Notes under the pieces: generated by a model
Told to the model about the DNA's origin: nothing
What the model saw: the letters and a program-made list of their open reading frames with translations, nothing else
The model's database searches: none
NCBI RefSeq assembly: GCF_000525775.1
Contig: NZ_JALU01000020.1
Coordinates: 1-64,000, forward strand
Direction of reading: 5' to 3'
DNA length: 64,000 nucleotides
Source of the DNA: Mogibacterium timidum ATCC 33093
Lineage (GTDB): Bacteria; Bacillota; Clostridia; Peptostreptococcales; Anaerovoracaceae
In this document: piece by piece, positions 47,182-63,861 of the stretch
Layout: the number at the start of each line of letters is the position of its first letter
Position numbering within the stretch: the first letter of the stretch is position 1
Translations under genes and position numbers: made by a program

Positions 47182-47458
47182 TATCATCCTCTCAAAATTT
47201 GTTGTATGTATACATTTATGCGTTGCCTATTATACAGATAAACTGTGAAGATTTGAACAAGAAAAGGAACTGTTCTTGTATACAAAGCAGATATGCAAGG
47301 TGATTGGAGTTATTTTAGTCACGTGATGTCAAATGTTATAGAAATGTTTTAAGCAAATATTTACTTATATATTATATATAGAAATGAAGTAAAGTGAATC
47401 ATAATATTAGTATGATAAACAGGCCGTCCGGGTCATGTTAATGATGCTGAGTTTTATA

Positions 47459-47497
47459 ATTAGATTGCACAAAGAAAGTGCAGTCTAATTTTTTTTA
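47459..47497 (+). terminator. Hairpin with T run at the chromosome/ICE boundary region
   Basis: 12-bp stem (47459-47470 with 47478-47489, one mismatch), then a run of eight T. No plus-strand gene lies directly before it in the window, so it may be a relic of what the element inserted next to. The gap 47182-47685 shows this, AT-rich sequence and the repeats at 47581. Confidence 0.6.
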
Positions 47498-47580
47498 TTG
47501 CAATTTCAACGGTTTCAATACATGGGTTTGATAAGTTATCTCATAAATTACCTTTGAAGTAATATAAAAAAGTTATGATA

Positions 47581-49062: not shown

Positions 49063-49863
49063 ATGAAAATAGTATCTGTTGTTAACCATAAAGGCGGAGT
49101 TGGAAAAACTACAATAACTATAAATTTAGGTGCAGAACTTGCAGAGCGAGGGAACAAGGTTCTCCTTATTGATTTAGACAGTCAGGGAAACTTAACGAAA
49201 GCTACGGGCATAGATGTACACAGAACTGGTGACAATCTATATACCGTTGCATCAGCCTTAAATGGAATTATGAAAGGGCAGGAGATTGATCCTTTGAAAT
49301 ACATATACAGGACAAATATTAGCGATAATCTTGATGTAGTACCTTGCTGTATAGATATGGCAGACACAAAGATTGCTTTAAATATCGCTATGGCAAGGGA
49401 AACAATGCTAAAACTTTTCATTGAGGAAATAGTTAAAAGCAAAAATTATGATTATGTGCTTATAGATAATGCCCCATCGATTGAAGTGGATTTCCAAAAC
49501 TCCTTAGTTGCAAGTGATGAGGTTCTTATTATCACAGAAGCAGATGAATTTTCTACAGATGGAATGGAAAGCCTGCTAAAACAACTTGGAAAAATAAAGA
49601 GTTTTTTCAATCCGAAACTTGAAGTAGCCGGTGTACTCATAAATAAAGCTGATTGCAGAACAAATTTATGTAAAGACATGATTGGCATAATAAGGGAACT
49701 ATTCGGCAAGCTAAAAGTATTTAATACCGTAATTCCGGCAAGCGTGAAACTAAAAGAAAGCCAGATTATGAAGGTTAGTATTAAAACTTATGATAAAGAT
49801 AATGCTGTTGCAAAGGCTATTTCTTCTTTTACTGATGAATTTGAAGGGAAAGTAGCAAAGTAG
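49063..49863 (+). CDS. parA: ParA-family ATPase (ICE partition)
   Basis: A 266-aa deviant Walker-A ATPase: KGGVGKTT (about residues 10-17), LLIDLDSQGN (Walker A'), and DYVLIDNAPS (Walker B). With the ParB-like gene downstream it would segregate the circular, excised form of the element. GGAGGAAAAGG lies before the start and a 16-bp gap leads to parB. Confidence 0.93.
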   Translation: MKIVSVVNHKGGVGKTTITINLGAELAERGNKVLLIDLDSQGNLTKATGIDVHRTGDNLYTVASALNGIMKGQEIDPLKYIYRTNISDNLDVVPCCIDMADTKIALNIAMARETMLKLFIEEIVKSKNYDYVLIDNAPSIEVDFQNSLVASDEVLIITEADEFSTDGMESLLKQLGKIKSFFNPKLEVAGVLINKADCRTNLCKDMIGIIRELFGKLKVFNTVIPASVKLKESQIMKVSIKTYDKDNAVAKAISSFTDEFEGKVAK

Positions 49864-49879: not shown

Positions 49880-50884
49880 ATGGCAATGAATTATAGAAAA
49901 AGTGTGTACATCAGAGACGAGCAATCAATCAAAAATGATATAGAAAATATAACTGATTTATACGGCGGAGCTGAAAAGAGACTTGAGGAAGCCAGTAAAA
50001 ATGGAGTTAAGAATATAGATGTTAATTTGCTTCAGGAAAGTAGTCTTAATCATTTTCATGCTATTTCAGGAGAGGAATGGGATGAATTTGTAGCAAGCAT
50101 AAAATCTCATGGAATATTAACACCTATCACAGTCAGACCTATAGCCGATGGAAAATATGAAATACTGGCAGGACATAATAGAGTTCGTGGAGCAAAAACA
50201 GCAGGGATTACAGAAGTTCCGGCAATTATAAAGGATGTTGATGATGTAGAAGCAAGCATCATAATTGCGGATACCAACCTTCAGAGAGAGGAAGTAACAG
50301 ACCTTGAGAAAGGCTGGGCATATAGAAATATATTTGAAGCCATAAATCGAAAAGGCAAAAATCAGTATACAAGTGCTTCGGGTCAGAACGACCCAAAGCA
50401 AAATGTTTCAGAGGAGAGTGCTTCGGGTCAGAACGACCCAAAGCTAAGAAGTAGTGAAATTATTGCTGAAAAATATGGCATTGGTGAAAAAACAGTTAGA
50501 AGAAAAATCCGTCTAACCTACCTAATCTATCCGCTATATACTTGCTATGAAAATAAGCTTATAACACAGGAAGTAGCAGAACAGTTGTCTTACCTAAGAA
50601 AGAATGAACAGGCTTTAGCAGAAGGTCTAATTAGTGCCGGGCTGGGGCTTACTCCGGAAATTGCTAAAGTAATCAGGAAGGCAAGTGAAGACCGCCATAT
50701 AAGTGATGTGGATATGCAGGAAATTGCAGGCACTAATATTAAGCAGGATACTACAAAGCCATCACGCCCAAAGAGGTACAGGATAGACGAAGCTCTATTC
50801 CCACCAACAGTAAAGAAAGGGCTGAGAGAAGACTATATAGTTAAAGCACTAACATATATTAGGGATAATAATATTGAGGTGTAA
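49880..50884 (+). CDS. parB: ParB/Spo0J-family nuclease-domain protein (ICE partition)
   Basis: A 334-aa ParB protein: ParB N-terminal domain (about residues 60-135; ILTPITVRPIADGKYEILAG and HNRVRGAKTAG), then an HTH region after about 190 (SSEIIAEKYGIGEKTVRRKI). Between them (about 165-188) is a 15-residue period repeat, SASGQNDPK appearing twice, encoded by an exact 28-bp direct repeat. It would bind a parS-like site and act with ParA. AAGGAG precedes the start; its stop overlaps the next ATG. Confidence 0.9.
   Translation: MAMNYRKSVYIRDEQSIKNDIENITDLYGGAEKRLEEASKNGVKNIDVNLLQESSLNHFHAISGEEWDEFVASIKSHGILTPITVRPIADGKYEILAGHNRVRGAKTAGITEVPAIIKDVDDVEASIIIADTNLQREEVTDLEKGWAYRNIFEAINRKGKNQYTSASGQNDPKQNVSEESASGQNDPKLRSSEIIAEKYGIGEKTVRRKIRLTYLIYPLYTCYENKLITQEVAEQLSYLRKNEQALAEGLISAGLGLTPEIAKVIRKASEDRHISDVDMQEIAGTNIKQDTTKPSRPKRYRIDEALFPPTVKKGLREDYIVKALTYIRDNNIEV
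50372..50444 (+). repeat. 28-bp direct repeat inside parB
   Basis: Identical copies at 50372-50399 and 50417-50444, 45-nt period (15 codons, in frame). Each contains the perfect hairpin GGGTC-agaac-GACCC. Confidence 0.85.
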
Positions 50885-51485: not shown

Positions 51486-51663
51486 AATATCAAAATTAAA
51501 AAAAGCAAGTGAAAGCATAAAAGTTAAGCGTTTGCGAAAATTTACATATGTTATAATAATAGCATAGAGATATATTATATAAATTAAACAAAAGTTTGCT
51601 ATAAACTAAACAAACCAGTAATTGCAACGCATGCAGAGATTTGGTGGAAATGCAGGAGAATAT

Positions 51664-52452
51664 ATGATAAACATAGATTTTACGGAAAAAACGAAAAAAA
51701 TAGAAAAAACATTACCGTACATAAAAGAAAAATTGAAAGAAAATCTGATATTTGAACCTTTCTATAAAGATTTTAAGTATTCATTTTGCTGGAGTTCTAA
51801 TGCGATTGAAGGTAACACACTATCTCTTAGTGAAACCATATCCTTACTTGAATACGATGAAGTATCAGCAGGACATAGTTTTAGAGAGTATGACGAAGCA
51901 AAGAGGTTATATTCAGCAATTGAGAAATATTTAAGTTTTGAATATAAGGATATTACTGAAAGCTGGATAAAGAATATTGCTCAAGAAGTTACAGGCTTGT
52001 CAGGAGGGTATAGAAAAGAAAATGTGTATATAGGCACTCTTTCAGAAGCAATATATTATCCGCCAAGTCATGAAAATATAAATGAGCTAATGGGGGAATA
52101 TATAAAGTATATAAAGCCATTTAGCAAAATGCAACTTGGGGATAAGATTACATATATTGCAAAGAAGCACATTGAATTTGAACGGATACATCCCTTTTTA
52201 GATGGGAACGGTAGAACCGGCAGGGTTATATTAAATCAATCCCTTATCAATGAAAGTCTGCTACCAATAGTAATAGAGCCGAAATCAAAATATAGAAGTG
52301 CTTTCAAAGAATATAACAAGTCTGGGGACACTTCCCTTATGGAAAACATAGTATATAACGGACAGCTTGAAGCCATAGAGAAAGTGAAACTTCTTGTAAG
52401 AAATATGGAGCATACACTTGGAAAATCAAAAGAAAGGGGGCTTGAGATTTAA
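51664..52452 (+). CDS. Fic-domain AMP-transferase, class II-like (ICE)
   Basis: A 263-aa Fic protein. The active-site motif HPFLDGNGRTGR lies at about residues 176-187, with its catalytic histidine H176. An N-terminal inhibitory motif S-N-A-I-E-G (S45, E49, G50) is intact, as in class II Fic proteins that hold themselves in check. Fic enzymes transfer AMP to target proteins such as gyrase or topoisomerase IV. AGGAGA precedes ATG at 51664; the frame is open upstream. A 178-bp gap with an AT-rich promoter-like sequence separates it from the operon before. Confidence 0.88.
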   Translation: MINIDFTEKTKKIEKTLPYIKEKLKENLIFEPFYKDFKYSFCWSSNAIEGNTLSLSETISLLEYDEVSAGHSFREYDEAKRLYSAIEKYLSFEYKDITESWIKNIAQEVTGLSGGYRKENVYIGTLSEAIYYPPSHENINELMGEYIKYIKPFSKMQLGDKITYIAKKHIEFERIHPFLDGNGRTGRVILNQSLINESLLPIVIEPKSKYRSAFKEYNKSGDTSLMENIVYNGQLEAIEKVKLLVRNMEHTLGKSKERGLEI

Positions 52453-52495: not shown

Positions 52496-53338
52496 ATGAA
52501 CATAAAGAAAATGGAAAGAGCATCTATTATCCTTTTGATACTTGTGTGCATAGGGATAATGTTTACCGGATGTTCTAAATCAGTAAAAGAAGAAGCTATG
52601 AATGAAGTTAAAGCTTTAAAGGCATCTGAATATATGACAGAAGACCAAAAGAGCATAGAAACACTAAAAAAATCCTTTATCAATAGCATTGACAAAGCTA
52701 AAGATGATAATGAAATTAAGAAAATTGTAAAGCAGTTTAGAACTGAAAAGAAAACCTTCGCCACAAGGAAGGATAAGATTAAGGCATATAAGGATCTTGT
52801 AATAAAGCAGGCAGGAGACAAGAAAGCTGAAGCTGAGAAAATCTTAAAGGCATATGAGAAAAAGCTTAATGCTGTCAAATCGAACAAGGAACTTGAGAAA
52901 CTAACTAAAGAAATAAACGCTAAAATTACAGAAAAGACCGGAAAATCAATAGAGGTTACAACTTCTGAAATTGAAACATCCACACCAGCCGGAAAGGAAA
53001 TACAGAAACAGCAGGCAAGTCCGGCAAGTTCCAGAAATAGCGGAAGTTCTGCTGAAACTCCTAAAAGTAATAGTGGTTCGAGCAGTTCCAAGCAGAAAGT
53101 ATGGGTAGTAGATAAGCCGGCATGGACGGAAACAAAATACAAAACTGAAACATACACATATACGGTGTATATATGTGGAGGAAGAGAGTTCCCAGATTAT
53201 GATTCTGGATATGCATATTACTGTGAGCTGGGTGATGCAGGCACTCCATCAAGATTGTATCCATCTACCAAGACAGGTACAAGGCAAGTGCCATACACGG
53301 TAACACATCCGGAGCAAGGACATTGGGAATACAGATAA
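52496..53338 (+). CDS. Lipoprotein with coiled-coil stalk and a C-terminal extracellular domain (ICE)
   Basis: A 280-aa protein: lipobox MFTGC (cysteine 26), a Lys/Glu-rich helical stretch with coiled-coil character (about residues 30-150), a Ser/Pro/Thr-rich linker (about 160-198), and a compact Tyr/Trp/Cys-containing C-terminal domain (VVDKPAWTETKYKTETYTYT, two cysteines). The domain resembles small repeats found on other surface lipoproteins, but no family can be named. GGAGGAA precedes ATG. A terminator follows, so it may be a separate unit in front of the adhesin. Confidence 0.7.
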   Translation: MNIKKMERASIILLILVCIGIMFTGCSKSVKEEAMNEVKALKASEYMTEDQKSIETLKKSFINSIDKAKDDNEIKKIVKQFRTEKKTFATRKDKIKAYKDLVIKQAGDKKAEAEKILKAYEKKLNAVKSNKELEKLTKEINAKITEKTGKSIEVTTSEIETSTPAGKEIQKQQASPASSRNSGSSAETPKSNSGSSSSKQKVWVVDKPAWTETKYKTETYTYTVYICGGREFPDYDSGYAYYCELGDAGTPSRLYPSTKTGTRQVPYTVTHPEQGHWEYR

Positions 53339-53348
53339 ATGATTTAAG

Positions 53349-53370
53349 CCACTCGAAAGGGTGGTTTTTC
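53349..53370 (+). terminator. Terminator after the ICE lipoprotein gene
   Basis: Six-bp stem with a GAAA tetraloop (53349-53354 with 53359-53364) followed by TTTTTC. Confidence 0.75.
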
Positions 53371-53398
53371 TAATGCTTAAAATTCAAAGGAGAAGAGA

Positions 53399-53431
53399 AT
53401 GGCAAAAAAACTAAAGGGTATACCTCCATAA
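53399..53431 (+). pseudogene. Ten-codon frame, probably a truncated gene start or leader
   Basis: AAAGGAG is followed by a short frame MAKKLKGIPP and stop. The good ribosome site suggests a real start whose gene was cut off, or a leader peptide for the adhesin. The surface-protein gene block might have inserted here. Confidence 0.4.
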
Positions 53432-53454
53432 TAAATATAAAAATTAAAACAGAT

Positions 53455-53486
53455 TTTAAGAGCGGTACACTTTAAGAGCGGTACAC
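53455..53486 (+). repeat. Exact 16-bp tandem duplication before the adhesin gene
   Basis: TTTAAGAGCGGTACAC occurs at 53455-53470 and 53471-53486, directly adjacent, ahead of a T run at 53491-53498. It could be an insertion scar or regulator site. Confidence 0.8.
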
Positions 53487-53529
53487 AGCCGTTTTTTTTC
53501 GTGTATTTTTTTACAAAGAAAGGAAAAAG

Positions 53530-56500
53530 ATGATAAAAAAATATAAAAAATTAACTGCGATTTTTGCAATACTTGTGACTATGAGCATGACAGCAGTTCC
53601 AATTCTATCCTTCGCGGAAACAATTCCACAGGGAACTGCTAAAAGTACAAATCTGAAAGAAAATTCTGCTTATGTTGAAAGCGAAAAAGAAGCAGAAAAA
53701 CCGGTAATTCCGGAAAAAGACAGCACTAACCCAGATAAAAGCGAAAATTCTAAAACTGAAAAGGCTGAAACAAAAAAAGATAAACCGGAAACTGAAAAAT
53801 CAAAGCCTGAAGATAAAATAAATTCAGATATAAAAGTTAAATTTTCTGCTTCCGGAAATGGTTCGTTCATCGTTAAAAAGGTAGGCGAACCTGAAGAGAA
53901 ACTTAGAGATATTGAAGCAGGAAAGACGGATTACATTAGTGCAGAAAAAGGGGAAACCTTTGAGGTATACACCTACGCATTAGATGGTAACAAGCTTACA
54001 TATAGACTAAATGACATAGAGAAGGTATCTGAGAACAAGGAAACAGTTAATAACACTCTTTTGAAATTTAAGGTAACAGGAGATAAGCCTGAAGCAATTC
54101 TTTCTTTTACCGGTGGTGAGAGTTTAGGCTCATCTGTACAGGAGATTTTTGCTGTACCGAGGTCATTTGGAAGTTCTAAATCTATATATGTATCCATAGA
54201 AAAATATCAATATGGATATGATGCTAGTGGACAAAGAGTGGCTCAAAATAAATACGGCAAATTTACAACATCTACAAGTGGAGTGTATGGCGGTGCTGTA
54301 TATTGTGCAGAACACGGTAAAACTCCAACAGTTGGAGGAATTACAGGAACTCTCATATCGGACACTACAATCCGTAAAATAATGTACTACGGGTATAGAG
54401 GTCCAGCTCAGTGGTCGGGGTTTGCATCAAGTTCCAATAATAGTGCATACAAAATTTGGGGGTCAAATACAAATAAGACGGAAATTGCCGGTACAGTAAT
54501 AACATCACAGGCTCTTTCTAACAGATATAGAAGTTTGGGCGGAAGTGGTATAACTACAAATCCACAAGGGTTAAGTGCTTTTATGTCATATGTTAACAGT
54601 CAACCGGATCCCGGAAACAGTTATGCTGTATATAGGGCTAGTGCTAGTGGACAAGACCTAATGTTTGGAGTATATCAGCCTAAAGGGTATGCAAAGGTGC
54701 AAAAGAGTGTGGCAAGCAACAAACACCTTACAGATGAGTGCAAGAATATGTACTCACTAAAAGGAGCGGAGTACCGGGTGTCTAAGAACAAAGATGGCTC
54801 CGGATACTTGGGGTCGCTAACAACAGATGCAAGCGGTAAGACAAATACGCTGAAACTTACCCCTGGAACATATTATGTGAGAGAAGCGAAAGCACCGAAA
54901 GGGTTTGCACTAGACCCTACAGTACATACTGTAAATGTCGTTTCGGGACAAACTGCTACGGTGCAATCAAAAGACGAACCGCTTTTTGACCCAATAGGTA
55001 TAGTTCTTCAAAAGACCGCTACAGATAACAGCTATTTAAATAAGTCAGATATGTCTGATGCTGAATTTGAAATAGCTTACTATAATGAAATGCTTGATAA
55101 GGTAGAAGGTAAAACTCCAACTAGAAAATGGGTTTTAAAAACAATGAAAGCTCAAAACGGGAATTATGTATCTCTTTTGCAAGATAAATATAAAGTATCC
55201 GGAGATGCTTTCTACAAGAGCGAGAAAGGCTCTATTGTTATTCCAAGAGGTACAGTAACAATTAGAGAAATTAAAGCACCTAAAGGTTATAAGGTTGATT
55301 CTAAAGTCTATGTAACTCATGTAGACAATGACCTGAATTTCAAAGACCAACTTGTATATAACTTTGGAAATACGCCTAAACAGCCCAATAAACCGTTAAA
55401 TCCGGAAATTCATACCACAGCATTGGATAGGGATACTACGGATAATATCGGCTCATACGGAAAGAATATAACCCTCATAGATAAGGTGGCATATAAGGAA
55501 CTGTCAGAAAATGAGACATATACTGTAAAAGGTGTTCTTATGGACAAGGCTACAGGAAAGCCACTTATGGTAAATGGGAAGAGAGTTACAGCAGAAAAAA
55601 CCTTTACCGTGACAAAGGATAATTCTACTATTGATGGAAATGGTGCAAGAGGAACGGTAGAGCTGGAATTTAATGTGGACAGCACAGTATTAGCCGGAAA
55701 AACAACCGTTGTTTTTGAGCATCTATATTATGACAAAAAGGAAATTGCCACTCACACAGACATCGAAGACGAGGGACAGACAGTCCATTTTTCTGAAATT
55801 AAGACAACTGCAAAATCTGCCGAAACAGGAAGCATGCTTGGTATGCCAAGAGAAAAAGAGATTCTCATAGATACAGTTAAGTATACAAATCTCATTCCGG
55901 GTAAAGAGTACACTATAAAGGGTGTGCTTATGGACAAAGATACAGGTAAGCCTATAAAAGACGAAAATGGTAGAAAAATCACAGCAGAAAAGACCTTTAC
56001 TCCGAACACGGCAGAAGGCAGTATAGATTTAGAGTTCACATATAACTCGCTTCTTCGTCAGGGGAAGACGACCGTTGTTTTTGAGGATGTATACCATAAT
56101 GGAATAAAAGTTGGAACACACGCAGACATTAATGATAAAGGACAGAGTATAGAATATCCGAATATCCATACTTCCGCAGACTTTAAGAACCTAGGAAGAG
56201 TTAATAACGGAATGGTTACAATACTTGATAAAGTGTCATATAAGAATCTTGCTCCGGGTAAAAAATACACCGTAAAAGGCATTCTTATGGATAAGGCTAC
56301 AGGTAAGCCTTTTATAGCGAACGGTAAGGAAGTAAAAGGGGAAACTACCTTTACACCTATAAGTTCAACCGGAACTATCACGGTGGAATTTGCATTCCCG
56401 GCATCTGCTATTGAAGGAAAGACTGTTGTTGTATTTGAGAATCTATATAATGACAACATTAAAATTGCAACTCATTCAGATATTACAGATATGAACCAGA

Positions 56501-56667
56501 CTGTTGAAGTTGGTCGAATGAATGTAAGATACGGCGGTGCAAACGGTTATCCAATTACAGGAGATGAGAATGTAATCTGGATTTTTGCAAGCATTCTATT
56601 ACTTTCAGCCGCCGGACTTATGCTTGCTGTAAAGCGTAAAAATAAGAAAAATAAAAAAGATAAATAG
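53530..56667 (+). CDS. Large surface adhesin: thioester domain, SpaA-like domains, three ester-bond (VaFE) domains
   Basis: A 1045-aa wall protein: signal peptide (1-29), a disordered Lys/Glu/Pro-rich segment (about 30-105), a beta domain, and a thioester-type domain with C259 in AVYCAEHGK and Q327 in TSQALSN as the likely bond pair. Two SpaA-like prealbumin domains (about 390-490 and 490-615) follow. Then come three T-Q ester-bond domains (about 626-755, 756-877, 878-995), each ending in a Gln such as DEGQTV or DKGQSI. Near the end is YPITG (about 1007-1011), a sortase-like motif, then a membrane helix and basic tail. Thioester domains form covalent bonds with target surfaces. AAAGGAAAAAG precedes ATG. 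Confidence 0.85.
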   Translation: MIKKYKKLTAIFAILVTMSMTAVPILSFAETIPQGTAKSTNLKENSAYVESEKEAEKPVIPEKDSTNPDKSENSKTEKAETKKDKPETEKSKPEDKINSDIKVKFSASGNGSFIVKKVGEPEEKLRDIEAGKTDYISAEKGETFEVYTYALDGNKLTYRLNDIEKVSENKETVNNTLLKFKVTGDKPEAILSFTGGESLGSSVQEIFAVPRSFGSSKSIYVSIEKYQYGYDASGQRVAQNKYGKFTTSTSGVYGGAVYCAEHGKTPTVGGITGTLISDTTIRKIMYYGYRGPAQWSGFASSSNNSAYKIWGSNTNKTEIAGTVITSQALSNRYRSLGGSGITTNPQGLSAFMSYVNSQPDPGNSYAVYRASASGQDLMFGVYQPKGYAKVQKSVASNKHLTDECKNMYSLKGAEYRVSKNKDGSGYLGSLTTDASGKTNTLKLTPGTYYVREAKAPKGFALDPTVHTVNVVSGQTATVQSKDEPLFDPIGIVLQKTATDNSYLNKSDMSDAEFEIAYYNEMLDKVEGKTPTRKWVLKTMKAQNGNYVSLLQDKYKVSGDAFYKSEKGSIVIPRGTVTIREIKAPKGYKVDSKVYVTHVDNDLNFKDQLVYNFGNTPKQPNKPLNPEIHTTALDRDTTDNIGSYGKNITLIDKVAYKELSENETYTVKGVLMDKATGKPLMVNGKRVTAEKTFTVTKDNSTIDGNGARGTVELEFNVDSTVLAGKTTVVFEHLYYDKKEIATHTDIEDEGQTVHFSEIKTTAKSAETGSMLGMPREKEILIDTVKYTNLIPGKEYTIKGVLMDKDTGKPIKDENGRKITAEKTFTPNTAEGSIDLEFTYNSLLRQGKTTVVFEDVYHNGIKVGTHADINDKGQSIEYPNIHTSADFKNLGRVNNGMVTILDKVSYKNLAPGKKYTVKGILMDKATGKPFIANGKEVKGETTFTPISSTGTITVEFAFPASAIEGKTVVVFENLYNDNIKIATHSDITDMNQTVEVGRMNVRYGGANGYPITGDENVIWIFASILLLSAAGLMLAVKRKNKKNKKDK

Positions 56668-56686
56668 GATACTGGAGGAAGAAGAA

Positions 56687-57628
56687 ATGAGAAAAGGAAG
56701 GATTATATCTACTGTCCTTATTCTTGTATTTATACTTTCTTGCTGTTTTGCAAATGCATCAGCTGAGCTGGTAAAAAAAGAAATATTCATTAGCGAAACA
56801 AAGAAAGCTTCATATGATGCACCGAAAGAAATAGAGGAAGGCGGTAAAGCATATAGGCTAAAGAAGATAGATTACAAGGTTATCAGAAGTCCGGAGGAGC
56901 TTAAGGGGGAAGTTGAGATTAAAAATCTTAATGAGAAAAAAGTTCCTTTAACTAAGAATATTGAAATTGATGGAAAGAAATACACCCTTTATCTTGATAC
57001 AGGTAAGACCAAATACAAGAAAGACAATAAAGAAGAAAAATATGTGTATGAAGCAAGAGACCCAAATAACTTCGTTCCTGAGCAAACAAGAATTTTTAAG
57101 CACGCTGATGGTAAAGACCTTACAGGAAAACTAAAGTCCACAGTTAAGGGACAAAACTACGGAAAGGGAATTACCGTACCGGGAAGATTTGATGGTTCTC
57201 CTAATGCTAAATATTTTCGTTTCGCAGGTTCAGGAAATTTCTATCCGCTGGATACATCAGTTCCAACATGGAAAGGCTATGAAGGAGACATACTAGCTCA
57301 TCTTGGATTAAATCCAAATACACATAGCATCACAGGCGGAAGATGGACAGGAACTGATGGAAGCGGAAAAAACGCAGTCTTTTCTGGAACAAGAACAGTA
57401 TGCGATTACACATGCACCTATACGACTGAAGGGGGCGGAGATACATATACAGCAAATGCAGTATATAACGGATATGAAATTGAAGCTTCAGCCATATATG
57501 AGGAATATATGACATTAAAGACAAAAATCCTTATCGGAATAGGTATAGGAATCCTAGCACTTGCAGTTGCAGTAATCATATATTTTCTTAAGAGAAGGAA
57601 AAAGAACAAGGAAGAACAATATATTTAG
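56687..57628 (+). CDS. Single-pass surface protein following the adhesin (ICE)
   Basis: A 313-aa protein with a signal peptide (1-26), an extracellular region of about 240 residues with repeated beta motifs (segments KKVPLTKNIEIDGKKYTLYL, VPGRFDGSPNAKYFRF), and a C-terminal membrane helix (about 275-297) with a basic tail. No sortase motif is seen, so it stays in the membrane. ACTGGAGGAAGAAG precedes ATG. Position 20 bp after the adhesin suggests a partner that presents or stabilises it. I do not recognise the family. Confidence 0.68.
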   Translation: MRKGRIISTVLILVFILSCCFANASAELVKKEIFISETKKASYDAPKEIEEGGKAYRLKKIDYKVIRSPEELKGEVEIKNLNEKKVPLTKNIEIDGKKYTLYLDTGKTKYKKDNKEEKYVYEARDPNNFVPEQTRIFKHADGKDLTGKLKSTVKGQNYGKGITVPGRFDGSPNAKYFRFAGSGNFYPLDTSVPTWKGYEGDILAHLGLNPNTHSITGGRWTGTDGSGKNAVFSGTRTVCDYTCTYTTEGGGDTYTANAVYNGYEIEASAIYEEYMTLKTKILIGIGIGILALAVAVIIYFLKRRKKNKEEQYI

Positions 57629-57637
57629 GAGGAGAAT

Positions 57638-57799
57638 ATGAGTGAGAAATTAGCTGTTGTAATAGAAGAAGAAAACTTTGAGATATCTCCTGAAGAACTG
57701 GATGGAATGCTTGGAAGACCGGATAACGACTATGACCCAGAAACAGCTTATCAGGTAGATGAGGTTGAAATTATACTACCAAAAGAAGTAAGGGAATAA
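57638..57799 (+). CDS. 53-aa acidic hypothetical protein (ICE)
   Basis: A short acidic frame (starts MSEKLAVVIEEENF) beginning 9 bp after the membrane protein stop, with AGGAGG directly ahead. It is followed by a terminator. No family recognised; soluble and probably cytosolic. Confidence 0.6.
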   Translation: MSEKLAVVIEEENFEISPEELDGMLGRPDNDYDPETAYQVDEVEIILPKEVRE

Positions 57800-57808
57800 C
57801 TGTTAGGT

Positions 57809-57830
57809 GGACGGAGAACCGTCCTTTTTT
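57809..57830 (+). terminator. Intrinsic terminator within the ICE operon
   Basis: Perfect 6-bp stem (57809-57814 with 57819-57824), GNRA-like 4-nt loop, then six T. It closes the surface-protein block. Confidence 0.8.
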
Positions 57831-57866
57831 ATTGGGAAATTATTGGCAAAGGAGCTGGTAAATATT

Positions 57867-59522
57867 ATGGCAAATAAGAAAAGTGAGGAATTTAGGCGTC
57901 AAGTTGCAGACATGTTTATAGAAGGCTTAAGAAAAGACGGATTAGCATGGAAGCAAGGCTGGAAAAGTGAATCTATTCTTCCTACAAATGCTAAGTCCGG
58001 TATTCCATATAGGGGAATGAACAGGATAAACCTTTTCTATACAGCATTATCTAGGGGATATGAGGATACAAGATGGCTTACCTTTAATCAGATAAAAGAT
58101 GCCGGATATGCACTAGAGAAAGGCTCTAAAGGAGCAAAAGTCGAATACTGGTATCCATTTGACAGACTGGAAAGAAAACCACTCACATGGAAGAAATACA
58201 ATATGCTTATCAAAGACGGGATAGACAAAGAGCGGTTTGCAATATTCGTCAAAATGTATACGGTATTCAATGGTGACAATATCAAAGGACTTCCGGAAAA
58301 AGAAGAATATATAAATCCGGATATTAAGCCGGGTGAGCTAATAGAAAAGCTTTCAAAAAGTATGGAAGTGCCAATAATCCACGACATAAACCATGAAGCA
58401 TGCTATATCCCCTCAAGAGATGAGATTTTTTTACCACCGGTAGAAAAGTTCTTGAATGCAGAAGCATATAACGCTACAGCACTACATGAGCTTGCACATT
58501 CTACCGGGCATGAAAGCAGGCTTGATAGAGAAATGGCGAATGCCTTTGGTAGTGAAGGGTATTCTTTTGAGGAACTTGTAGCAGAAATGACCTCTGTTTT
58601 TATGAGTGTCCATACGGAAATAGACCCTATGAATACGGATATTGAGAATCACCAAGCATATGTAAATGGATGGATAGAAGCTATAGAAAAAAGTCCGGAA
58701 GTTCTTTCTAAAGCCATTAAATATGCTGAAGAAGCTACCGCATATATGGAAGAAAAAGCAGGGATTTCGGAAGAACTATTGAAAGAAGCTGAAAAGATTA
58801 AGGCGTTTGAATTTGAATATAGGATGCTTGGAAGACTGCAACAGGACTGTGAATACTACTTAGGAGCTGGGGGAAAAGATGCTGAACATGCACTTTATTA
58901 TCATGACGAAAAAAGACATATAGAAGAGATGAAAAATTTATATGACAAAGTACCGATTAAACCTGAATGGCTTTCAGAAGAAAAACTGAAAGAGTATGAA
59001 AAATTACTCTTGAATACGAATGGTGATATTTTACAGGAGTTTAATGATAAGTTCTATAAATTCGGAGTAGTGTTAACCTCTGAAAATGAAGTTAGAGCCT
59101 TAACTCATGACGAGGGATGGATTACATGGTTTGATAAAGAGGGTAAATGCATGGGTAATACCGACCAGCTGAATATTTGGTTGTCAGACAGGGGTAATTC
59201 GGATTATCCGGATAGTGAGCAATTTTTGATGCCTACATGTGAAGATGTCCTTGAAATGGTGGAGAGTATTGCTAAAGTATATGGCATTACAATTCCTGAA
59301 GCACAGCTAGGGAATGTAATCGATTTAGAAGATTTTGGAGAACTTAGCTTTAATGCGACTAATTTAAAAGCTGATTTTCTAAAGGATGCTGAAGAAAACT
59401 TACATGAAGAAAGTCCGGTAGAAAGGCTTAAGGACATGTTTAACAGTAAAGAAAAAGAAATTGAAGCAGAAGGGAATACTTCATCGAAGGTAAGGCATAA
59501 AGCACTAGAGTTAGAACTGTAG
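57867..59522 (+). CDS. ArdC-like antirestriction protein with zinc metallopeptidase domain (ICE)
   Basis: A 551-aa protein: N-terminal ArdC single-strand DNA-binding domain (about residues 5-125; AWKQGWKSESILPTNAKSG and PYRGMNR), followed by a zincin-like peptidase domain with HELAH (H207 to H211) in LHELAHSTGHESRL. A longer C-terminal helical region (about 290-551) is special to the Gram-positive element version. It would protect incoming single-stranded DNA from restriction. ATG at 57867 follows AAAGGAG with a longish 13-nt spacing. Confidence 0.87.
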   Translation: MANKKSEEFRRQVADMFIEGLRKDGLAWKQGWKSESILPTNAKSGIPYRGMNRINLFYTALSRGYEDTRWLTFNQIKDAGYALEKGSKGAKVEYWYPFDRLERKPLTWKKYNMLIKDGIDKERFAIFVKMYTVFNGDNIKGLPEKEEYINPDIKPGELIEKLSKSMEVPIIHDINHEACYIPSRDEIFLPPVEKFLNAEAYNATALHELAHSTGHESRLDREMANAFGSEGYSFEELVAEMTSVFMSVHTEIDPMNTDIENHQAYVNGWIEAIEKSPEVLSKAIKYAEEATAYMEEKAGISEELLKEAEKIKAFEFEYRMLGRLQQDCEYYLGAGGKDAEHALYYHDEKRHIEEMKNLYDKVPIKPEWLSEEKLKEYEKLLLNTNGDILQEFNDKFYKFGVVLTSENEVRALTHDEGWITWFDKEGKCMGNTDQLNIWLSDRGNSDYPDSEQFLMPTCEDVLEMVESIAKVYGITIPEAQLGNVIDLEDFGELSFNATNLKADFLKDAEENLHEESPVERLKDMFNSKEKEIEAEGNTSSKVRHKALELEL

Positions 59523-59840: not shown

Positions 59841-60062
59841 ATGGGAAGTTTTGCATCACAGCTTACAGCATTCGTACAGAGTGCCAGACCGCTTATTATT
59901 GCACTTGTTGCAGTAGCACTACTTATTAACGGTGCTATGATGATATATCCAAGCGAACGAGGAAAGGAAAGGGCGAAGGAAGCTCTCCCTTGGGTTGTAA
60001 TTGGTTCAGCTATAGCGTTAGGAGCTGTAGCTCTTGCATCAGCTTTAACAAGTGGATTTTAA
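59841..60062 (+). CDS. Maff2-family small membrane protein (ICE)
   Basis: A 73-aa protein with two membrane helices (about residues 16-36 and 49-70), one on each side of the short loop PSERGKERAKEALPW. Maff2 proteins occur in every Tn1549-like element beside VirD4 and VirB6 and are viewed as the VirB2-like subunit of the transfer channel (inference). GGAGG precedes ATG. A perfect 12-bp hairpin follows immediately. Confidence 0.88.
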   Translation: MGSFASQLTAFVQSARPLIIALVAVALLINGAMMIYPSERGKERAKEALPWVVIGSAIALGAVALASALTSGF

Positions 60063-61152: not shown

Positions 61153-63861
61153 ATGGAACACTTAAAGAAATATATATCCATAAATTTTAGACCGGAACTT
61201 ACCACAGACAATGTTAATAAGACTATGGTGCTTAACCGCTTTTTAGGTAATCCTCTCATAGTTTTAATATATATAGCTATATTAGATATTGCACTTACAC
61301 TTGCATTTAGTTTCGTGCTTAATGTGGTATCGAGTATACCCTTAATGCTTAAAGACTGGGAACATTTAGGTAAATATATCAACTTTGCCCAATGTATACC
61401 TAACATAACGGAAGGAAGAAAAGTAATCTACTTTTTCTTTTTTACTGTATTGCTACTTGTGGATATTAGGCAGGCATATATGCTTAGGGTTTCCTTTGCA
61501 GAAAAAGATATTAACAAGGGGAATCAAGGAACTAGAAGATGGACAACACTAAAGGAAGTTGTTAATCAGTATAAGGAAATTGAACTTATCCCTTCTACAT
61601 ATAAAATCGTTCCGGCTGGAAAGAACATCGAAGAAGACAAGGAACTTCCGGAAGAGGGAGGAAGCTATGTAGATGAAATAATTTGTGATGAAAATGGTGA
61701 GGTTATAGAGGAAAAAGTGAAAACACCGAATTGGTATCAGGGAAAAGGAGGTATCCCGGTAACAAGGTGGAGAGATAAACTGTACATAGACCCACAATTA
61801 ACGAACAACCTCTTTATAGGTACGACACGGTCAGGAAAAGGAGAGATGTTCGTATTTACCCTTATAGATATTCTATCAAGAGCGTATAAAATGGTAGATA
61901 GACCTTCAATGATAATTTTTGACCCGAAGCTTGAACTATATAAATCATCGAAGAATACATTAGAAAAAAGGGGATATGTAACAAGACTATTGAACCTTGA
62001 TGACCCTAAAAAATCTGCCGGATACAATCCACTTGCAATAGTAACAGAATATTATGCTGAAGGAAAACATGATGAAGCACAACAACTTGCTAAATCTTTT
62101 GCCTTCAGCATTTTTAATTCCAGTAAAGACATGCAAGAGCCGATTTGGAAAAATACTGCTACAGACCTTTTTACCGCACTAATTTTGGCAGTAGTAAGTG
62201 ATTGCATAGGAATGGACGAAGAACTTAACTCTAAAAGAAGAGAACACCTTCTTCTGATGAAAGAAAACTTTGATAGCATCGATGATAAAGAGGAAGCAAG
62301 CGATAGATTTTATCAGATTTTGGAAAAACTATCTCCGGAAGAAGATGTAATTTTAGAAAGTTCAAGGCTCGGATTAACCTGTGCTCCACCTGAATATGAA
62401 TTTGCATATATTTATCCGAATAGGAAAAATATCAACTGTTTTTCTGTAATCAACTTCTTTAGGGAACTTTGTGATGTAAATAGTGAAAATGCAGGACAAG
62501 ACCCTAAAGCCGGAGAAAAACAAGCTGAAACAGCACTAGATGATTATTTCAACAGCCGTCCACAGCTTGACTATGCAAGAGGGCTTTACGCATCAATTAA
62601 AACCGCCGGAGATAGAACGAAGGGAAGCATCTATGTAAATATGCAGTCAGCACTCACAATTTTCAGTATGGATTCTATAGCGAGAATGACTGCTGAAAAC
62701 GATATAGATTTTGCGAGTATCGGTTTTGGAGATAAGCCGGTGGCAATTTTTCTGGGTCTTCCAACAGAAGATAAATCTAATCACTTTTTAGCCCTTAATT
62801 TTGTAACGCAGGTTTTTCAGTATCTATTTAAGCTGGCAAAAGCAGACAAGGGAAAGCTAAAGAGAAATGTAAGATTTATACTTGATGAGTTTGGGAACAT
62901 GCCGATACTGGATAACTTTGGCAGTATGGTTACAAACTGTCTTGGCGTTGGATTTTCTTTTGATATTTTTATCCAGTCATACGACCAGCTCAGGACAAAT
63001 TACGAGATGGAAATGGACACAATCAAGGATAATTTTGCAAATCAAATATATATTCTTGCGATGGGAATGGAAACAGCAAATGAATTTAGTGAGCAACTTG
63101 GAAATAAAACAATAGTGGATCTTCAGCGAACGGGAACAAGGTTTGGTAAGAATAAAACATTTATGGAATCTACAAAAGAGAAACCACTGTTGTTTCCGCA
63201 GGAGCTTCAGGATTTGTTTGAAGGAGAATTTGCACTAATCAGAGGGTCAAAGCGAACAGATTTGGCAGGTGCTGCTATTCGCTCCTATCCTATCCTTGCT
63301 GAATATATGAAGTGTCCATATTTTTGGTGGTATTTTGTGGCACTTGGGACAGCTATAAAGAGCAGACGGGAAAAAGGAGCTATGAAGGATAAGGATACAG
63401 AAGAACCTTTATCTTTTCGTAAAGAATATGGCTACCACTTAAGTCAAATTAAGAGAAAGCTTGGAACTGCATTTTTATATCGCTGGCAATATGCAACGGA
63501 AGATTTTCCTAATCCTACAGATATAAGACTTTCAGATATATGTGACGAAAGCAGAGCTTCTATAAACTATACAAAGCTGGTATACGATACAAACGAAGTT
63601 ATGAGAAAGCTCGGTATTTTTGATTTTGCTGAAGAAGCCGAAATCGGTAAAAAGAAAAAGAAGCTTAGGGATTTAAATTCTGCTTACTATGCCTTTGATA
63701 ATAAGCTGGCAGAAAAGGTGGAAAATTACAAAGATGAGTTCGGTCTATATCCGGATACGGATGTAAATAAGGCAATGAGGATACTTAAAAACATCCAGAA
63801 ACAGTATGCCCTTTCAGAAGACTATATATCTTCGCTAGAATCGATTATTATGCAAAGCTAA
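61153..63861 (+). CDS. virD4: VirD4/TraG-type coupling ATPase (ICE)
   Basis: A 902-aa coupling protein bringing the DNA-relaxase complex to the transfer channel. Two N-terminal membrane helices (about residues 33-60 and 92-112), a soluble ATPase with Walker A FIGTTRSGKGE (about 221-231) and Walker B VRFILDEFGNMP (about 574-585), and a long C-terminal domain. It is longer than the approximately 600-aa classical members, mainly in the segment after the second helix and the C-terminus. Begins one base after the JAB gene's stop. It is intact, indicating a functional transfer system. Confidence 0.93.
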   Translation: MEHLKKYISINFRPELTTDNVNKTMVLNRFLGNPLIVLIYIAILDIALTLAFSFVLNVVSSIPLMLKDWEHLGKYINFAQCIPNITEGRKVIYFFFFTVLLLVDIRQAYMLRVSFAEKDINKGNQGTRRWTTLKEVVNQYKEIELIPSTYKIVPAGKNIEEDKELPEEGGSYVDEIICDENGEVIEEKVKTPNWYQGKGGIPVTRWRDKLYIDPQLTNNLFIGTTRSGKGEMFVFTLIDILSRAYKMVDRPSMIIFDPKLELYKSSKNTLEKRGYVTRLLNLDDPKKSAGYNPLAIVTEYYAEGKHDEAQQLAKSFAFSIFNSSKDMQEPIWKNTATDLFTALILAVVSDCIGMDEELNSKRREHLLLMKENFDSIDDKEEASDRFYQILEKLSPEEDVILESSRLGLTCAPPEYEFAYIYPNRKNINCFSVINFFRELCDVNSENAGQDPKAGEKQAETALDDYFNSRPQLDYARGLYASIKTAGDRTKGSIYVNMQSALTIFSMDSIARMTAENDIDFASIGFGDKPVAIFLGLPTEDKSNHFLALNFVTQVFQYLFKLAKADKGKLKRNVRFILDEFGNMPILDNFGSMVTNCLGVGFSFDIFIQSYDQLRTNYEMEMDTIKDNFANQIYILAMGMETANEFSEQLGNKTIVDLQRTGTRFGKNKTFMESTKEKPLLFPQELQDLFEGEFALIRGSKRTDLAGAAIRSYPILAEYMKCPYFWWYFVALGTAIKSRREKGAMKDKDTEEPLSFRKEYGYHLSQIKRKLGTAFLYRWQYATEDFPNPTDIRLSDICDESRASINYTKLVYDTNEVMRKLGIFDFAEEAEIGKKKKKLRDLNSAYYAFDNKLAEKVENYKDEFGLYPDTDVNKAMRILKNIQKQYALSEDYISSLESIIMQS

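Follow-up and report, generated by a model that had tools for sequence, protein, structure and literature searches.

A thioester adhesin and its membrane partner inside a conjugative element of Mogibacterium timidum: a candidate mating-adhesion module

How donor and recipient cells are held together during Gram-positive conjugation is poorly known beyond pCF10 and pLS20. In this study, a 64,000-nucleotide stretch of contig NZ_JALU01000020.1 from Mogibacterium timidum ATCC 33093 (the window) was analyzed, and it raised the question of what a block of surface-protein genes does inside an integrated conjugative element (ICE). The block lies downstream of ParA/ParB and upstream of the ArdC, pilin and VirD4 genes, in the following order.

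49063-49863 (+): ParA, upstream limit of the module
49880-50884 (+): ParB (98.5 bits), upstream limit of the module
51622-52452 (+): Fic-domain protein (Pfam Fic, E 8e-16), variable cargo located after ParB and ahead of the module
52496-53338 (+): lipoprotein, 280 aa, lipobox FTGC26
53530-56667 (+): TIE adhesin (by its sequence), 1045 aa, with signal peptide, thioester domain, two SpaA domains, three TQ/VaFE domains and YPITG
56687-57628 (+): membrane partner, 313 aa, with signal peptide and C-terminal transmembrane (TM) segment, a type I membrane protein
57638-57799 (+): 53-aa acidic protein, no signal peptide or TM segment, predicted cytosolic
57807-59522 (+): ArdC-type antirestriction protein (ArdcN, MPTase-PolyVal, LPD11)
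59841-60062 (+): TrbC/VirB2-like pilin (E 2e-4, below cut-off)
61153-63861 (+): VirD4-like coupling protein, CD1115 family (NF045973, 315.8 bits, cut-off 250)

Markers of a Tn1549/pLS20-like ICE are present, including the CD1115-family VirD4, VirB4, primase/topoisomerase and ParAB; VirB4-like, DUF3991/Toprim and topoisomerase genes were found downstream of the block. The contig end at 76,843 falls inside the element, and on the left flank homology to same-genus genomes ends at 47,271. The ArdC-type gene probably starts at the ATG at 57867. A first-pass annotation of this DNA had described four genes for exported or surface proteins, with the partition genes on one side and the antirestriction and transfer genes on the other. 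The general position was borne out, but the Fic gene separates the block from ParB/orf152, and the exported products are three (lipoprotein, adhesin and membrane partner), not four, because the 53-aa ORF has neither signal peptide nor TM segment.

The combination of thioester, SpaA-type and three ester-bond domains proposed for the adhesin agreed with the Pfam/NCBIfam matches, the ester-bond residues and the AF2 fold. Its features are as follows.

54175-54675 (+): thioester domain (about residues 216-382), from alignment, AF2 model and structure matches
54304-54306 and 54652-54654 (+): codons of C259 and Q375, within the thioester domain
55402-56511 (+): three T-Q ester-bond domains (about residues 625-994; PF18202 three times, NF033903)
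56548-56562 (+): sorting motif YPITG (residues 1007-1011; TIGR01167 20.6 bits, cut-off 15.9)

Pfam searches matched TQ ester-bond domains three times (E 1e-80) and SpaA domains twice (E 1e-17), with a TED_2 match that stayed sub-threshold (E 3e-5, 24.3 bits versus the 27-bit cut-off); the NCBIfam models for VaFE repeats (NF033903, E 4e-108) and the LPXTG anchor both exceeded their cut-offs. PF08341 (TED) had no match in the organism's own genome, a negative that carries no weight, since the controls likewise gave none. With T450/D480/E547/H572/D577/Q580 of Cpe0147 (PMC12679949) as template, all six ester-bond positions were filled in each of the three TQ domains. YPITG, which departs from the canonical LPXTG, is followed by a TM segment and a basic tail. 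With thioester-domain motifs, a SpaA/ester-bond stalk, a signal peptide and a sorting signal, the protein has the predicted make-up of a TIE adhesin.

Two motifs mark the reactive residues of thioester domains, [YFL]C-Phi-zeta for the Cys and Phi-Q-zeta-Phi-Phi, on a C-terminal strand, for the Gln; a third, TQxxPhiW, belongs to a helix and is dispensable for the thioester bond (PMC4450167, PMC6194298); the Gln motif has been described as weak (PMC4450167). Alignment with 24 relatives (25 divergent sequences) showed C259 (YCAE) to be invariant and Q375 (GQDLM) nearly so, the motifs being Y258-C259-A260-E261 and G374-Q375-D376-L377-M378, with G in the first Phi position. In the AF2 model of the domain (pLDDT 78, pTM 0.66), both C259 and Q375 fall on strands, with Q327 inside a long central helix. 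Q327, named at first as the likely partner of C259, was rejected, as it sits in the variable helix motif equivalent to TQxxPhiW; C259 was retained, and its partner is almost certainly Q375, with which it would form an internal thioester. The model adopts the thioester-domain fold: its top match in the PDB was BaTIE (E 5e-11), and structural alignment gave Z scores of 12.0 for EfmTIE86, 9.8 for CpTIE and 9.7 for SaTIE. These four proteins share fold and domain logic with the ICE adhesin, but they have been studied as host-directed, and membership in a transfer module is not described for them. A profile grown from the thioester domain also found TIE_pLS20 (E 2.7e-7, pLS20 ORFs searched alone).

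Three sortases are encoded by the host, two of them adjoining pilin genes and one on contig C5; none was found on contig C20. The C5 enzyme appears, in our reading of its sequence, to be class B-like. At about 44,900-49,000 of contig C18, two sortase genes lie side by side in a pilus-type locus that also encodes SpaA-type pilins.

A second ICE of this family, divergent from the first, is present in the M. timidum genome (contig C24, about 100,000-129,961; loci L008 and L011), and its surface block has the same order. Identities between the two ICEs were 51% for the lipoprotein, 56% for the adhesin, 45% for the partner and 50% for ArdC, compared with 56% for VirB4, 43% for ParA and 32% for ParB. 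Given the shared order and a divergence matching that of the T4SS protein VirB4, the block was inherited jointly with the transfer core rather than acquired as recent cargo. The two ICEs do not share the Fic gene: at its position the second has an unrelated gene. The partner-ArdC gap of the second ICE, only 112 bp, is too short for the 53-aa ORF. Both copies of the adhesin keep their active-site residues, a single acid in one of the second copy's ester domains being the exception. The two ICEs also share, close to their left ends, a 78-bp stretch of 85% identical DNA (47431-47508 of the window and 124732-124809 of contig C24).

The first-pass annotation had proposed a comparison across related elements with structure prediction, and the predicted structure matched solved thioester domains. 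Four further ICE contigs, from other genomes of the family (L024/L034, L027/L035, L132 and L133), repeat the order exported protein, giant thioester adhesin and membrane partner; the trio is followed by pilin/SSB/ArdC/SNF2 or VirD4 genes, with ParB-type genes upstream where the contig extends that far. A thioester-type Cys motif (YCLE, FCMN) opens every adhesin on these contigs, and a helix motif resembling TQ..IIW occurs in most of them. The upstream exported proteins of L034, L035, L132 and L133 did not match the lipoprotein profile. In L025 the module is rearranged or partial, and in L026 it is truncated. On an Enterocloster bolteae plasmid (L120/L121, NZ_CP069521.1), one 3925-aa ORF joins a SpaA adhesin to the partner domain (54 bits), which comes after the sorting signal; next to it are genes for a class B sortase and, in a Tcp conjugation cluster of TcpA/C/D/E type, for an FtsK/TcpA-type protein, a conjugal transfer protein, TcpD and TcpE. 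This fusion was found in the plasmid search when a homologue from genome G286 was used as query; the window's own partner gave no match there.

Copies were also observed away from transfer genes. L136 is a chromosomal trio and L137 a partner with a large exported protein, both beside housekeeping genes with no transfer genes in view. A third TIE-like adhesin of the M. timidum genome (L009, 11495-14698, contig C21), in which no thioester domain was detectable, lies among housekeeping genes (mtaB-like, HIT, rplC/rplD-like). Among 79 named relatives retrieved from the genome_contigs collection with a wider adhesin alignment, 16 had a core conjugation gene within 10 kb and 63 had no core marker, figures that have no background rate and include many loci ending at contig edges. 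Linked relatives include Blautia hansenii, B. caecimuris, Clostridium symbiosum, Mordavella and a Tn916-type element of Anaerostipes. Neither a narrow thioester alignment nor a single adhesin retrieved any relatives when used to scan genome_contigs and viral_contigs.

The membrane partner belongs to an unnamed family linked to thioester adhesins. It matched no Pfam family and no PDB chain, profile search of the PDB giving chance-level matches only; single-sequence structure prediction reached pLDDT 33, and no copy was found in three same-genus genomes. The lipoprotein has a charged N-terminal half and a conserved C-terminal unit, WVVDKPAWTET...HPEQGHWEYR; it likewise matched no Pfam family and had only chance-level matches in the PDB profile search. 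A weak match to EexN (E 0.05) spanned the signal peptide only, and this identity was rejected. A lipoprotein-like gene ending in HPEEGHWEYK was observed shortly upstream of a SpaA adhesin in L029 (9391-12775), outside any ICE seen. Three hairpins bear on the transcription of the block.

53346-53367 (+): intrinsic terminator after the lipoprotein gene (-11.9 kcal/mol, z -3.7)
53464-53507 (+): hairpin plus U-run within the leader of the adhesin gene, 22 nt upstream of its ATG (-15.9 kcal/mol, z -3.9)
57809-57824 (+): intrinsic terminator closing the adhesin-partner operon (-10.3 kcal/mol, z -2.1)

The terminators annotated earlier at 53349 and 57809 both fold well. The former had been taken as a boundary of the block; it lies inside the block, after the lipoprotein gene. 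Having its own terminator, the lipoprotein gene would be transcribed separately from the adhesin and partner genes, and we infer two units, the lipoprotein alone and the adhesin, partner and 53-aa ORF together, the partner probably being co-transcribed with the adhesin. The leader hairpin, in which a repeated AAGAGCGGTACAC-like stretch was observed, is possibly an attenuator or terminator; a riboswitch scan of the leader against Rfam found no family.

What the block does is best judged against known conjugation adhesins. TIE_pLS20 (p34) of the Bacillus subtilis plasmid pLS20 is encoded in the conjugation operon and is needed for efficient conjugation (PMC8092201, 2021); without it, transfer falls about 1000-fold in liquid but 15-fold on solid medium, and its Cys68 is essential (PMC8092201). 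The first-pass annotation had regarded a mating function as not described for such a protein, a statement that this study of 2021 overturns. Like the ICE adhesin, TIE_pLS20 is a thioester-domain adhesin in a conjugation module with a CD1115-family VirD4, and the thioester domains of the two are profile-related; unlike it, TIE_pLS20 has a class II domain and no sorting signal, needs no sortase and has no TQ domain described. No homologue of the membrane partner or lipoprotein was found in pLS20. Conjugation adhesins of the TIE_pLS20 kind are placed inside or beside transfer genes, as the ICE adhesin is. PrgA/PrgB/PrgC of pCF10 are also sortase-anchored, encoded with a T4SS and aid mating-pair formation (PMC12857230); PrgB differs in that it has no thioester and binds LTA and DNA through a polymer adhesin domain.

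A second comparison is with the ICE-borne, SrtB-anchored Clostridioides difficile adhesins CD0386 of CTn1 and CD3392 of CTn7 (PMC3158075, PMC5569036). A C. difficile record for a SrtB-anchored collagen-binding adhesin contains YCID, EQCVVW, GQELG, SpaA, two TQ domains and SPKTG. As this record and CD0386 have a product name in common, the thioester/SpaA/TQ pattern of the record makes CD0386 another probable TIE protein, apparently of the same design as the ICE adhesin, although in 2011 no ligand-binding domain was found in it (PMC3158075). Unlike the ICE adhesin gene, CD0386 is the last gene of CTn1, and the record has two TQ domains and no partner genes seen beside it. In L031 (12461-15505, NZ_CP149680.1), a C. 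difficile SrtB-anchored 'collagen-binding' adhesin with thioester motifs was observed directly 5' of a Tn916-type transfer module. CTn1 marked in CD0386 was transferred at 2.0e-8, versus 7.0e-9 when marked in CD0364, in filter mating with large errors (PMC3158075); from these values the CD0386 insertion caused no loss of filter transfer. Filters and solid medium are where TIE_pLS20 matters least (PMC8092201).

Our preferred reading, held with only slightly better than even confidence, is that the block serves the ICE as a mating-adhesion module. Once exported, the adhesin would be wall-anchored via YPITG by the class B-like host sortase, and the SpaA and ester-bond stalk would project the thioester domain away from the donor. 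The Cys259-Gln375 thioester could then bond to an amine of the recipient surface or of a shared matrix, and this covalent bond would serve as a force-resistant link during T4SS DNA transfer, as is thought for TIE_pLS20. The membrane partner may help to display or hold the adhesin, and the lipoprotein may be a separately expressed helper. The mating-contact role suggested by the first-pass annotation is strengthened by co-inheritance with the T4SS, recurrence in ICEs and the pLS20 precedent, and weakened mainly by the CD0386 filter result and also by the chromosomal copies, the 63 relatives without a core marker and the lack of partner and lipoprotein homologues in pLS20. Two observations had been named beforehand as telling against it, a chromosomal locus without transfer genes in relatives and undiminished conjugation after deletion; the outcome went halfway, with the trio of L136, the partner of L137 and the CD0386 insertion that left filter transfer undiminished (PMC3158075).

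These same observations favor colonization cargo, that is, an adhesin which binds host or mucus to the advantage of its carrier and has no direct part in transfer. The known targets of thioester domains are host proteins (SfbI to fibrinogen, PMC4450167), CTn1 transfer was not lowered, and L009, L136 and L137 are chromosomal. In the ICEs seen, the block is nevertheless flanked by par and transfer genes, and it diverges at the pace of VirB4, while the adjacent Fic cargo is not shared, and we consider cargo unlikely, though a serious alternative. A single adhesin might also do both, joining mating cells and attaching its carrier to host or biofilm, for which PrgB of pCF10 is a precedent (PMC12857230, PMC8092201), and thioester chemistry is not tied to a single partner; with no known target for the adhesin and a different adhesion domain in PrgB, such a dual role seems improbable. 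The pLS20 precedent, weighed against a CD0386 result obtained on filters, sets these estimates for mating, cargo and mixed roles.

It is very unlikely that the lipoprotein and membrane partner are entry-exclusion factors against redundant transfer, unrelated to the adhesin. Gram-positive elements do encode surface exclusion factors, such as ses of pLS20 and the lipoprotein YddJ of ICEBs1. However, the partner accompanies large surface proteins outside ICEs as well (L136, L137), it is fused to an adhesin in E. bolteae, and neither protein has similarity to known exclusion proteins. That the block is an inert or unexpressed, decaying passenger is scarcely credible: expression of CD3392 was not detectable in the laboratory (PMC5569036), but every ORF here is intact and the active-site residues are kept in both ICE copies, bar the one acid.

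Thioester adhesins on conjugative elements are already known; the novelty lies in the conservation of the trio, in the unnamed family of the membrane partner, in the partner-adhesin fusion and in the evidence of inheritance with the transfer core. Extending the mating-adhesion reading, we tentatively suggest, at somewhat less than even confidence, that the trio is a conserved three-gene mating module of Gram-positive ICEs: a covalent thioester adhesin, a dedicated membrane protein by which it is presented or tensioned, and an exported helper, used with such different machines as the pLS20/Tn1549-like and the Tcp-like and taking the role of Gram-negative pili. The findings on the ICE block suggest a retest, in liquid mating, of the CTn1 and CTn7 adhesins, which were discussed in 2011 as host factors. 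If a thioester adhesin with a standard partner is regular in the ICEs of gut Firmicutes, mating contact would often be covalent, a common partner family would be available for study, and mating contact would be open to inhibition.
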